From NCBI GenBank assembly GCA_016934555.1, contig JAFGSS010000104.1, forward strand, positions 1 to 36,535: a DNA stretch of 36,535 nucleotides, read 5' to 3'. This DNA is from Acidobacteriota bacterium. Its GTDB lineage: Bacteria > Acidobacteriota > UBA6911. Both the position numbers and the translations under genes were made by a program. The notes below the pieces were generated by a model. It was not told where the DNA came from, did not search any database, and saw nothing but the letters and a program-made list of their open reading frames with translations. Below, in pieces: positions 1 through 5,725 of this stretch (position 1 is the stretch's first letter; every line of letters begins with the position of its first letter).

Positions 1-153
1 GCGGTATTCCATGAATTTGGCCGCGTCCCGGGAGTCCTCGGCCGCCCCGATCCTTTCGACGGCGACGCTCCCGGAGAGGCTGAACCCATCGGCGGCCGCG
101 GCGGCGCCGGGGGCCGGGGCGCATGCGAGGAGCAACCATAGGACGGATTTCAT
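1..153 (-). CDS. MtrB/PioB-like outer-membrane beta-barrel, N-terminal fragment
   Basis: Fifty-one codons are readable from ATG at 153 to the window edge; the rest lies outside. The product starts with a signal peptide (MKSVLWLLLACAPAPGAAAA, then AD) followed by a mature N-terminus with alternating polar and hydrophobic residues and a KFMEYR segment, which resembles the start of MtrB/PioB-family porins (typically a KF.EYRD segment after the first strand). The start has a purine-rich site (AGGGGGA, 5 nt before ATG) and lies 10 nt after the stop of the decahaem cytochrome. MtrA-like cytochrome and MtrB-like barrel are normally adjacent and form a transmembrane electron conduit, so context supports the call. 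The family assignment rests on about 30 mature residues plus the neighbour; another barrel family is possible. Confidence 0.6.
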   Translation of the reverse strand, partial: MKSVLWLLLACAPAPGAAAAADGFSLSGSVAVERIGAAEDSRDAAKFMEYR

Positions 154-163
154 GTCGGTCCCC

Positions 164-1132
164 CTATCGCGTGAGGTATTTGCCGCGGGTGGCGGGCGCG
201 TTGCTCCCGTGGATGGCGTTGTGGCAGTTGAGGCAGGACCGGGCGACGAACCGGGTGTTCGCACTCCTGGCCGGAGACCCGGGGATCCGCTCGAATCCCT
301 GGTCGGCGCTGTAGGCGGTCCCCGGGTGGCGTGACCAGTCGTGGCAGTCCTGGCAGAGGTTGGGCACCCGTTCGTTCAGCAGCTTCGTGTGCGAGGATCC
401 GTGGGGGCTGTGGCAGGAGAGGCAGTTCTCCTCGACCGCCGGATGCTGAAAGAGGAAGGGGCCGCGCTTGTCGGCGTGACAGCTCCAGCACTGCACGTTG
501 AGGGTTTCGTGCCGGATCATCCCCGGGCTCTGGGCGCCGTGGGGGTTGTGGCAGCTGGAGCAGGCGACCTTGCCTTCCACGACGGGATGGTGGGAGGGTT
601 TGCCGATCTCGATGCGCACCCGCTTGTGGCAGCGGATGCAGGTTTCGTATTCCAGCTCCCGTCCCGTGTTGACGAAGGGGGCGGCGGACGGGTCGCGCCG
701 GGTGAAGGCGACGGCCGAGCCGCGGGGGGGCGGCGCATGCACGGCGTGGCAGTCGTTGCAGCGCACATCGTTGCGTGCGTGCCGCCCCGATTCCCAGAAG
801 GCGAGATGCCGGTTTCCCCCGTGGCACTCCATGCAGGCCCCGGTCTGTTCCCGCGCGGGGACGGTCCCCCGGGTGAAGCGTACGGGGAACGGGTTGCCGC
901 GGGGGTCGTCCGGGTGGGCGTCATTCGTCCCGTGGCAGGCGGAACACGCCCGCCCGCTGCCGGCCGGGGAATCGGGATCGCCTGCAGTCCCGTGCCGGGT
1001 GTCCAGGACCCCCGCCTGGTCCTGGTGGCAGGCGAGGCAGGTCGCGGGCTCCTCCGCGGCGGGGGCGGAGAGGGGGAACAGGAGGAGAAGGATCGGGGAA
1101 AAAGGTAAAACCAGAGAGGGGCGATAGGCCAT
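164..1132 (-). CDS. Periplasmic decahaem c-type cytochrome, MtrA/DmsE family
   Basis: The 322-residue protein has a signal peptide (hydrophobic run about residues 7-25, APAA cleavage region) and exactly ten CXXCH haem-binding motifs (CLACH, CSACH, CMECH, CNDCH, CIRCH, CSSCH, CWSCH, CLSCH, CQDCH, CLNCH). Ten haems in about 300 residues matches MtrA/DmsE/PioA-type periplasmic cytochromes, which sit inside an MtrB-type porin and pass electrons across the outer membrane. The ATG at 1132 is preceded by GGAGGG at usable spacing; the frame is open further upstream, but that stretch has no signal peptide and crosses a terminator-like hairpin. The MtrB-like gene follows 10 nt downstream. Whether the flow is metal reduction, oxidation of an extracellular donor, or DMSO-type respiration cannot be told from sequence. 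Confidence 0.92.
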   Translation of the reverse strand: MAYRPSLVLPFSPILLLLFPLSAPAAEEPATCLACHQDQAGVLDTRHGTAGDPDSPAGSGRACSACHGTNDAHPDDPRGNPFPVRFTRGTVPAREQTGACMECHGGNRHLAFWESGRHARNDVRCNDCHAVHAPPPRGSAVAFTRRDPSAAPFVNTGRELEYETCIRCHKRVRIEIGKPSHHPVVEGKVACSSCHNPHGAQSPGMIRHETLNVQCWSCHADKRGPFLFQHPAVEENCLSCHSPHGSSHTKLLNERVPNLCQDCHDWSRHPGTAYSADQGFERIPGSPARSANTRFVARSCLNCHNAIHGSNAPATRGKYLTR

Positions 1133-1278: not shown

Positions 1279-2640
1279 TTAATGCCTGATCTTGTCGAAG
1301 ACGATCTCCTTCTCCTCTTCGAACTCCGGACAACGGTCGTCGGTGTGGCACTTCAGGCAGAGGTCGATCTGCGGGTCGGCCACCGGGATCGGCTTCATGC
1401 TGGCCAGGTGCTCCGTCGCGTCCCCGTGGCAGGATTCGCACTGCACGTTCACGAACGCCATCTGCATCTCCTGCATGTTGAAGCCGCCCGGCTGCTCGAA
1501 GCGGATGGTGTGGCAGGAGAGGCACTTGGGATCGTACTGCTTGGACTTTCCGACCAGGGTGGCGTATGCCTTGGCGTGATCGGTCGTCTTCCACTGCGCC
1601 ACCTGGCTGCTGTGGCAGGGGGCGCAGGCCTCGACGCGCAGAGGTACATCCGCAGCCGCGGGCTGGTCCCCGCCTCCCCCGCCGTACATGTCGGCCACCT
1701 TGTCGTTGTAGGCCGAGATCATCCCCTGGACCTTGCCGTCGTCGGCAATGGATTCGTCAAAGGGGACCAAGGTGTTTACCGGCTCCTTCGACCCGTCCAG
1801 GGCGACCTCGAGCATTCCCAGGTACTGCCCCTTCTCCCCCGCCCGGACGATGAAGGCGTCCCCGGCACCCAGGGGATCCGGCGTCTTCTGCCTGTCGTGG
1901 CCGCCAACCACCAGGTGGATGCCCTTGACGCGGCGCGCGATGACCCAGTCGCGGTTGGCGATCTGGTGCGTCATCGCGATCACGTAGTCGGCTTTGCCCG
2001 CGAGTTCGGCCACCACCGCTTCCGCCGCCTTGACGGGGTCCTGGACGGTGAGGGCGCCCCCGGTGATATCGGCGAGCTTGCCCGCCATTTCCGAGGTGTC
2101 GCCGTACAGGCCCATGATGGCCACGGTCTTGCCGTTGACCTGCTTGAGCACGTAGCGCTGGAACACCGGTTTGTTGTCGGCGTCGACCAGGTTGGTGGAA
2201 ACGAACGGGAAGGAGTACTTCTTTTCCAGCTCCTTGAGGTAGTCCAGTCCCAGGACCAGGTCGAGCTCTCCGACGTTGACGGCGTCGATCCCGATGGTCT
2301 TGAAGATTTCGAGGATCAGTTCCGCCTTGAGTTTCGCGCTCTCGATCACCGAATCGGGAAGCTCTTCATCCTCGTTGAGCAGGTCTCCCGAGTCCACGAT
2401 GACGAGTCCGGGGTGATCCTTGCGGTATTGGTTGAGATAGGTGGCCTTCTTGTACAGCCCGCCGAGCTGTGCACCCGTGTCCGCTCAACCGCACGGCTCC
2501 AGGTAGCCCCGCAGGTTGCTCGTGTAGGCCACCGTGATCCCGGAGGCGTCATCGGCGCGCGAGGGGCCCACGCTGATTCCGGTCGATAAAAGGATGGCCG
2601 CGCCAAGAAACAGCAGCAATACACCAAAAATCTTCTTCAT
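1279..2640 (-). CDS. Selenocysteine-containing tetrahaem cytochrome with UshA/metallophosphatase-like domain
   Basis: Read from ATG 2640 the frame gives 453 residues with one internal TGA at codon 52 (2485-2487), best read as selenocysteine. The ATG has an excellent AGGAGG site 4 nt away and opens a signal peptide (MKKIFGVLLLFLGAAILLS). The UGA sits in EPC-G-U, where related metallophosphatase/cytochrome proteins, as I know them, carry PCGC followed by a LGGL segment, seen here as QLGGL. Downstream is a calcineurin-like fold with partly changed metal ligands (VDSGD, NVGELD, MTHQ, GGHD), then a C-terminal cytochrome region with four CXXCH motifs (CAPCH, CLSCH, CESCH, CLKCH). A standard gene caller would start near codon 82 and lose the signal peptide, impossible for a periplasmic cytochrome. 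A sequencing error or nonsense mutation is the alternative, but frame and similarity continue on both sides. Confidence 0.85.
2451..2487 (-). other. UGA selenocysteine codon and candidate bacterial SECIS hairpin
   Basis: UGA is at 2487-2485. Starting 11 nt downstream, the transcript can fold into a hairpin (2473-2451): two outer pairs, one C/A mismatch, five pairs ACAGC/GCUGU, and a 7-nt loop UCGGCGG beginning 20 nt after the UGA. SelB-recognised bacterial SECIS elements are hairpins at about this distance with guanines early in the apical loop. The fold was made by eye. Confidence 0.6.
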
Positions 2641-2941
2641 CTAACCTCCTGCGGGGTATGACGGCCCAAAACTTCGGCAGTCCCCCGTATCTTCAGATAT
2701 GCCATGCCCTACGATGATAACATCCCCGGGCGGCGGCGCGCCAGCAATTCATCCGCCTTACGCCGCCGGCGCCCTCATGCTCCATATACGTCGGGGCGGA
2801 GGGGGCTGTTTTGTCCCCGCTGAAAAAAATCGACGCTCCCGCCCGGCAGGGGGGCGAGATGAAACCTTCGATTGCGCCCCGGGGAAGGGTGTGCTATTTT
2901 TTTCGCTTATTCAGACTTTTCCCGGTTCAAAGGAAGGCACC
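2641..2941. other. Divergent intergenic region, cytochrome gene and TPR gene
   Basis: These 301 bases separate the minus-strand selenocysteine cytochrome from the plus-strand TPR gene. They hold the AGGAGG site of the cytochrome gene next to 2640, an 8-bp inverted repeat CGGCGGCG/CGCCGCCG (2731-2738 and 2761-2768, long loop), and the plus-strand promoter candidate at 2872-2900. A frame open through 2699-2941 shows no protein-like composition. I found no convincing minus-strand promoter. Confidence 0.5.
2872..2900 (+). promoter_or_regulatory. Sigma70-type promoter candidate for the TPR gene
   Basis: TTGCGC (2872-2877), a 17-bp spacer, and TATTTT (2895-2900) preceded by TGC as an extended -10 element. 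It lies 41 nt before the proposed TTG start and in a locally AT-richer patch. Confidence 0.45.
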
Positions 2942-4696: not shown

Positions 4697-5725
4697 ATGA
4701 TTAAGATAGCCGTGGACAGCATGGGGAGTGACAATTCCCCCTTCAGTGAAGTTGAAGGAGCCGTGATGGCGGCCCGTGCCTACAAGGTCGCCGTCATCCT
4801 CGTGGGGAAGGAATCCCTGCTGGCCCCGCTCCTCGAGGAGGCAGGGGGGGGGGAACTCCCGATCGAGATCCGCAACGCGACCGAGGTGGTGGCCATGGAC
4901 GAGTCCCCGGTCGCGGCCCTCAGGAAGAAGCGGGATTCCTCGATCCGGGTAGCCGCGGACCTGGTGAGGGACGGCAGGGCCAGCGGACTGGTCAGCGCCG
5001 GCAACACGGGCGCGGTGATGGCGACCTCGAAGATGGTTTTCGGTACCGTCCCCGGAGTGGACAGGCCGGCGCTGTCGACGGTCCTGCCCACGCTGACGGG
5101 TCACTCGGTGCTGCTCGATGTGGGCGCCAACATCGCCTGCAAGCCGCACCACCTGGTCCAGTTCGCCGTCATGGGGCATCTTTTCAGCAAGAAGATCATC
5201 GGTGTCGCCTCCCCCCGGGTCGGGCTCATGTCGGTCGGGGAAGAGGAAAGCAAGGGGAACGACCTCACCAAGGAGGTCCACCGGGAACTGAAACGGCTGA
5301 AGCTGAACTTCATCGGCAACGTGGAGGGGCGGGACCTCTACAACGGGCGGGCCGACGTCATCGTCTGCGACGGGTTCACCGGCAACGTCGCCCTGAAGAC
5401 GAGCGAGGGGCTGATCGAGGCGGTGCTGACGCTGCTCCGGGAGGAACTCTCGCGGAACCTTCAGGCCAAGCTCGGCGCCCTCCTCAGCCAGCAATCGTTC
5501 AAGCGGCTGAAGAAGAGGCTCGACTACTCGGAGTACGGCGGCGCGCCCCTTCTCGGGCTGCGCGGCGCCACCATCATCTGCCACGGCAGATCCAGCGGCA
5601 ACGCGATCAAGAACGCGATCCGGGTGGCCAAGGAATTTTCAGACAATCAGGTCAACGCCATGCTCGAAGCGGAACTCAGCCAGGTGGAGCAGGGCCCCAA
5701 GGGGGTGGTTCCCATCGGCGGGTGA
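4697..5725 (+). CDS. plsX: Phosphate acyltransferase PlsX
   Basis: A 342-residue protein that converts acyl-ACP and phosphate to acyl-phosphate, the acyl donor for PlsY at the start of phospholipid synthesis; it is a peripheral membrane enzyme. The N-terminus IKIAVDSMGSDNSP with EGAVMAA is the family signature, and SAGNTGAVMA, LPT and the late CDGFTGNVALKTSEG and GA-TIICHGRSS segments follow in order. Length matches the family. It follows rpmF by 48 nt in the common rpmF-plsX order, but the usual fabH-fabD-fabG are missing before acpP. The ATG at 4697 has only a weak ribosome binding site. Confidence 0.95.
   Translation: MIKIAVDSMGSDNSPFSEVEGAVMAARAYKVAVILVGKESLLAPLLEEAGGGELPIEIRNATEVVAMDESPVAALRKKRDSSIRVAADLVRDGRASGLVSAGNTGAVMATSKMVFGTVPGVDRPALSTVLPTLTGHSVLLDVGANIACKPHHLVQFAVMGHLFSKKIIGVASPRVGLMSVGEEESKGNDLTKEVHRELKRLKLNFIGNVEGRDLYNGRADVIVCDGFTGNVALKTSEGLIEAVLTLLREELSRNLQAKLGALLSQQSFKRLKKRLDYSEYGGAPLLGLRGATIICHGRSSGNAIKNAIRVAKEFSDNQVNAMLEAELSQVEQGPKGVVPIGG

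Follow-up and report, generated by a model that had tools for sequence, protein, structure and literature searches.

An UshA-like selenoprotein of COG0737 with the motif CxU is listed in the available part of the GOS survey of 2008 (PMC2398784), and an UshA-like selenoprotein family is listed again in the accessible text of reviews of 2022 (PMC9312934) and 2026 (PMC13188914). The family is held in NCBIfam as NF041198 (UshA_like_PCGU), and a literature search for its function or for its fusion to haems returned only family listings. The accessible text of the 2026 review (PMC13188914) also lists the haem-linked selenoproteins ExtKL (NF040886), the GSU2204 barrel (NF041027) and the octahaem TIGR04315. 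These resemble the protein described here in placing Sec within multihaem electron-transfer systems, but are separate protein families with other Sec sites.

The stretch of DNA analysed (36,535 nt, hereafter the window) encodes a member of NF041198 on its minus strand. The protein scored 332.1 bits against a cut-off of 275 (E 5.4e-99), with both the UshA-like part of the profile (positions 9-270) and its haem region (positions 352-517) matched. As this cut-off was passed and the family has been reported since 2008, the protein belongs to an already known selenoprotein family; an earlier reading of the same DNA (the sequence-only reading) had described an unusual electron-transfer protein, but it is not an unrecognised one, since NF041198 and the selenoproteome surveys already contain the family. 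The PCGU motif, the UshA-like N-terminal domain, the C-terminal haem region and the overall architecture are shared with the family, whereas the window protein differs in belonging to a genus labelled Acidobacteria in public records. Metal-site loss, SECIS conservation and Sec/Cys interchange were not found in the available parts of the literature on this family, and are set out here.

Gene, reading frame and annotation

2645 to 2650, minus strand: Shine-Dalgarno AGGAGG, 4 nt 5' of the ATG (sequence)
1279 to 2640, minus strand: UshA-like tetrahaem selenoprotein gene, 453 aa with Sec52, ATG to TAA (sequence; NCBIfam NF041198 match)
2554 to 2640, minus strand: predicted signal peptide region, MKK and hydrophobic helix, residues 1-29 (sequence; AlphaFold2 helix 2-20)
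2485 to 2493, minus strand: putative Cys50-Gly51-Sec52, TGC GGT TGA (sequence; all 43 aligned members have C-G-(Sec/Cys))
2485 to 2487, minus strand: in-frame TGA at codon 52, almost certainly read as selenocysteine (sequence comparison)

The gene forms a single 453-residue frame (2640-1279, minus strand) from the ATG at 2640 to the TAA at 1281-1279. Its sole in-frame stop is the TGA at 2487-2485 (codon 52), which completes a Pro-Cys-Gly-(Sec/Cys) motif as PCG-TGA at codons 49-52. The sequence-only reading had proposed one in-frame TGA at codon 52, falling at the second Cys of a PCGC motif, behind an ATG with an AGGAGG site and a signal peptide for export. All of this was borne out: the AGGAGG lies at 2650-2645, the N terminus is signal-peptide-like with a helix over residues 2-20 in the AlphaFold2 model, and relatives with the motif carry Sec or Cys. 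A near-perfect Shine-Dalgarno sequence also precedes the equivalent ATG in most genus members. Under the standard code, only a 372-aa GTG ORF (2397-1279) is listed, which lies 3' of the TGA and is without the signal peptide; the selenoprotein gene is one that standard annotation software would shorten, and the risk of a truncated annotation that had been anticipated is borne out. The window was scanned for further UGA-Cys motif candidates, and none was convincing, the others lying in frames unlike coding sequence.

Selenocysteine codon among relatives

TGA was kept at the equivalent of codon 52 in 10 of 10 genus genomes, with SCGU replacing PCGU in 2 of the ten members. Public relatives in the genus (60-65% identity) are labelled as Acidobacteria/Acidobacteriota MAGs. 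In a large genome collection, 79 loci were compared and each relative in the alignment had C-G-(U or C), and haem-bearing relatives with the motif had only U or C at the codon 52 position. A tree of 113 sequences (57 Sec and 56 Cys), made with the Sec/Cys trait column masked, needs at least 9 Sec/Cys changes. Selenoproteins, unlike nonsense mutations, commonly show such an interchange. Two results that had been named beforehand as counting against selenocysteine did not appear: the homologue alignment gave Sec or Cys only, with no unrelated residues, and in place of TGC or TGT at 2485-2487 there is a TGA that is conserved in ten genomes. From these comparisons, the TGA at codon 52 is almost certainly a selenocysteine codon and the product a selenoprotein. 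Viral contigs were searched for relatives of the tetrahaem selenoprotein, and none were found.

The genes selA, selB and selD scored above curated cut-offs in the source genome (3.25 Mb, 233 contigs, 97% complete). Its selD (G000:C149:344-1273, L017) also codes for a selenoprotein and has a TGA within the frame at the usual place (TTAAGUAAK). A tRNA-Sec search of the 233-contig assembly gave hits to serine and other tRNAs, but none to tRNA-Sec. In each of the 9 other genus genomes, the tRNA-Sec model was matched at about E 1e-13 or better, and those of these tRNAs that were checked with ARAGORN have the anticodon TCA. The tRNA-Sec flank of sister genome G005 (L038:1688-3095; tRNA at 1501-1599) aligned at 92% to contig C69 of the source genome and reached base 5022 of 5024, i.e. 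the contig end. As the alignment stops there, the tRNA-Sec gene is expected 89 bp beyond the contig break, and we infer from this synteny that the genome has its own copy behind it. Of the Sec-insertion genes that the sequence-only reading had named for checking, selA, selB and selD are present, and selC is not in the assembly; a lack of all of them, which would have counted against selenocysteine, is therefore not what was seen.

Other readings of the TGA were weighed against selenocysteine. The codon is one base from TGC or TGT and Cys is common at the site in relatives, which would suit a nonsense mutation or a misread Cys codon; yet the same TGA stands in ten genus genomes and dozens of others, coding conservation flanks it on both sides, and there is no second in-frame stop. 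Its conservation across genomes already refutes a pseudogene or sequencing error, and we attach practically no probability to either. Hardly better placed is a restart after the TGA, by which the 372-aa GTG ORF reported by a standard ORF finder would yield a shorter, cytosolic protein: such a product would lack both the signal peptide on which c-type haem attachment depends and the conserved G45, C50 and G51, while the Shine-Dalgarno sequence and ATG lie upstream and the segment 5' of the TGA is conserved. An open frame with TGA as sense would, by itself, look alike if the code had changed genome-wide and TGA specified another residue such as Trp. However, plsX, ybeY and corC in the same window all end with TGA as a normal stop, so that a genome-wide change is excluded; in relatives the site is occupied by Cys and never by Trp, and the Sec machinery is present, leaving this explanation with a negligible probability. 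Selenocysteine at codon 52 is the reading used below.

SECIS hairpin

2454 to 2470, minus strand: putative bacterial SECIS hairpin, ACAGCUC-GGC-GGGCUGU (comparative conservation, bSECIS rules)

The bSECIS rules given in the available part of PMC13188914 comprise a loop of 3-9 nt, a stem of 4-16 bp, a G in the first two loop positions, a distance of 16-37 nt from the UGA, and an energy of -7.5 or below. Scored against these rules, the hairpin at 2470-2454 (7-bp stem, GGC loop that begins 21 nt after the UGA, -7.5 kcal/mol) falls within the limits, with an energy exactly on the threshold and so borderline. Taken alone, the hairpin is weak: its performance was matched by 11% of synonymous shuffles of the window gene, and single-sequence folding of the 71-nt region was not unusual (z -0.8). 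It is taken as real because comparative evidence supports a SECIS. Among the ten genus genomes, codons 58-63 hardly vary at silent positions (entropy averaging 0.27 bits, against 0.99 in the other codons whose amino acid is invariant), and resampling codons of the same amino acid gave P about 3e-5 for this synonymous-site conservation, a value that serves as a guide only because related sequences are not independent. Of 62 Sec genes, 38 fitted a strict SECIS model, where synonymous shuffling gave an expectation of 6.1; of 56 Cys genes, 8 fitted it, against an expectation of 5.1. Among the 62 Sec genes, 5 are duplicates of genus genomes, without which the count is 33 of 57. Rfam gave no match at the gathering score at the hairpin site, and with E allowed up to 10 there was still no hit to a SECIS family. 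Bacterial SECIS elements are described as diverse in the available part of PMC13188914, so an Rfam match is not required. The SECIS-like hairpin of the sequence-only reading is upheld in its size, spacing and comparative conservation, and is qualified by its weakness in isolation and its borderline energy.

Phosphatase-fold domain and loss of most metal-site residues

1681 to 2547, minus strand: UshA/CD73-type metallophosphatase-fold domain, residues about 32-320, with most of the metal-site residues lost (sequence, model)
1282 to 1638, minus strand: tetrahaem cytochrome c554-like domain, four CXXCH (Pfam PF13435, E 6.9e-15)

An AlphaFold2 model was made from 43 family sequences (pLDDT 86, pTM 0.83), and its best PDB matches were 5'-nucleotidases (3ivd, CD73, UshA) over about 320 residues, with a Foldseek E of 8e-23 to 3ivd. 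Residues about 32-320 share the fold of the 5'-nucleotidase/UshA/CD73 enzymes; the window protein differs from them in having largely lost the metal and catalytic residues, and in carrying a tetrahaem domain in place of the nucleotide-binding domain. CD73 residues D36, H38, D85, N117, H118, H220 and H243 are those which we take to be the two-metal site and the catalytic Asn-His pair. By sequence comparison, four counterparts are replaced in the window protein (D36 by N42, H38 by R44, N117 by E125, and H118 by L126), which thus does not have the two-metal site plus Asn-His pair of 5'-nucleotidase/UshA enzymes. D86, H225 and H248, the counterparts of phosphatase ligands, are kept, so a residual metal site is possible; these positions vary across the family. 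No metal-ligand position is fixed among the 43 aligned members, whereas all 43 share C50, G51, G45 and G85, have U or C at position 52, and keep the haem-binding residues. The C-terminal nucleotide-binding domain is missing, with PDB sequence matches stopping near residue 321-328, where the haem domain follows.

SoxB thiosulfohydrolase (TIGR04486) is the closest named enzyme profile outside the protein's own family, and its score of 83.7 bits lies far below the cut-off of 550. To our knowledge, SoxB has no haems and no Sec. As its metal and catalytic residues are largely lost, the window protein is, judged by alignment, probably no phosphatase. The name metallophosphatase, given in the sequence-only reading, remains apt for fold and ancestry, but not for activity.

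Tetrahaem domain

Four CXXCH sites were found (residues 339-343, 373-377, 401-405 and 428-432), in agreement with the four haems proposed earlier, and the PF13435 match scored 56.2 bits against a gathering score of 20.8. Every one of the 43 aligned members matched the cytochrome c554 domain. In the tree, 105 of 113 members carry four haems in one chain, a share inflated because the set was gathered with a haem-bearing query; relatives with the motif but without haems are a minority (L055, L057, L059, L062, L065, L067 and L074). Judged from these alignments, the conserved core of the haem-bearing branch consists of the Cys-Gly-Sec/Cys pair and the four haems, carried by a scaffold of phosphatase origin. 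The tetrahaem module matches cytochrome c554 (PF13435; PDB 1bvb) by sequence, but differs in being fused to an UshA-fold domain and in scoring only 38 bits against the 400 of the equivalog NF043010.

Neighbouring genes

164 to 1132, minus strand: DmsE-family decahaem c-type cytochrome, 10 CXXCH, 3' of the Sec gene (TIGR03508, 228 bits vs. cut-off 192)
1 to 153, minus strand: 5' part of an MtrB/PioB-type outer-membrane barrel gene that runs off the contig end (sequence; sister homologue)

The intact barrel of sister G005 matched TIGR03509 at E 8.5e-50, yet below the curated cut-off. In the source genome, a TIGR03509 fragment at the start of another contig (C64:124-1140) is probably the remainder of the window's cut MtrB/PioB barrel gene. 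The DmsE decahaem/barrel pair stands next to the Sec gene only in the window and the closest sister (L161); it was absent in the other genus members examined, where unrelated genes follow the Sec gene, and the association of a DmsE-MtrB conduit with the Sec gene was not conserved across relatives. On the 5' side, a divergent conserved block encodes a TPR protein, a 295-aa protein, PlsX, ACP, EtfB and EtfA, and the 295-aa protein gave no family match. A conserved operon partner was sought, and in most genus members examined the Sec gene stands alone, divergent from the TPR to EtfBA block. In seven other loci, mostly of Deltaproteobacteria, a 16-haem cytochrome neighbours the relatives. Gene context points to electron transfer.

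A perfect GC-rich inverted repeat (CCGGGGGGGCGGACGCCCCCCCGG) without a T run occurs at window 1267-1244, just past the stop of the Sec gene, and stands between this gene and the decahaem/barrel pair. It is a possible terminator or stabilising hairpin.

Proposed function and alternatives

The proposal builds on what comparison has shown, namely Sec at codon 52, the SECIS, the fold, the haem motifs and the decay of the metal-site residues. The best explanation, which we hold with fair confidence, is an exported selenoprotein in which UGA-52 is decoded as Sec and a redox Cys-Gly-Sec pair exchanges electrons with the haems. SelB and tRNA-Sec would decode the UGA at codon 52, directed by the hairpin at 2470-2454, and the protein would be exported and receive four haems. 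Redox chemistry at Cys50-Gly51-Sec52, which would sit in a loop beside the former active site, probably replaces hydrolysis, with Cys50 and Sec52 perhaps cycling between selenenylsulfide and selenol. Electrons would move through the tetrahaem C-terminal domain between the selenol/thiol pair and periplasmic cytochromes; the electron partner here is perhaps the DmsE decahaem/MtrB-PioB conduit encoded next door. The reaction partner may, as a guess, be a sulfur or selenium compound of the periplasm, or else a disulfide in a protein; SoxB, the closest enzyme profile outside the family, is a sulfur enzyme.

From residue conservation, we consider a redox rather than hydrolytic function probable, and a selenol redox centre feeding the haems is the likely mechanism. 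A link to an outer-membrane conduit in the window organism is tentative. More speculative still is the full scheme, in which a former metallophosphatase has become a Sec-dependent periplasmic oxidoreductase whose four haems lead to a multihaem network and, in the window lineage, to an MtrAB-type conduit, coupling a chalcogen or thiol reaction to extracellular electron transfer.

The selenoprotein might instead still be a metallohydrolase of the 5'-nucleotidase or SoxB kind. Sec52 would then add a metal ligand or act as a regulatory switch, and the haems would have some other purpose. In favour of this are the matches in fold and profile to 5'-nucleotidases and SoxB, together with the remaining H225, H248 and D86. 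N42, R44, E125 and L126 in place of four metal or catalytic residues, ligand positions that are unfixed across a family in which C-G-(U/C) and the haems are fixed, and the missing nucleotide-binding domain make it improbable. About as improbable, in our estimate, is a role of the Cys-Gly-Sec in assembly, for example in handling thiols during haem attachment or in selenium or metal trafficking, rather than in electron transfer. Some relatives do keep the motif without haems, but four haems in the chain of 105 of the 113 tree members, even as a share raised by the haem-bearing query, are hard to explain unless motif and haems cooperate. Electron exchange between the Cys-Gly-Sec pair and the haems is the reading preferred over both.

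The case is one in which a Sec codon is established from sequence alone. In this widespread selenoprotein family, which is classed as related to phosphatases, most of the phosphatase site has gone while the Cys-Gly-Sec/Cys pair and four haems are kept, which suggests an uncharacterised class of periplasmic selenol-haem oxidoreductases. The natural Sec/Cys variants of the family permit a direct test of the role of selenium.

Tandem copies and outlying members

Mostly in Planctomycetota genomes, two family copies occur in tandem at a distance of ~1.4-1.6 kb, with TGA in the first copy and a Cys codon in the second (L106, L130, L131, L133, L136, L137, L139, L141, L145, L148, L150 and L155). L103 has a U+C tandem and L121 a U+U one. 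In the tree, the copies group into two sister clades whose branching runs in parallel, and the Sec/Cys pair has therefore been kept together since an old duplication. L087 is titled as a Thermoplasmata archaeon, yet its sequence nests among Deltaproteobacteria in the tree, and L150 is titled Bacillota, yet nests among Planctomycetota; both are probably mis-binned MAG contigs or cases of transfer. A stand-alone 157-aa tetrahaem protein at G000:C70:14291-14635 (L021, L078) matches only the haem part of NF041198, and is also present in most other genus genomes examined.
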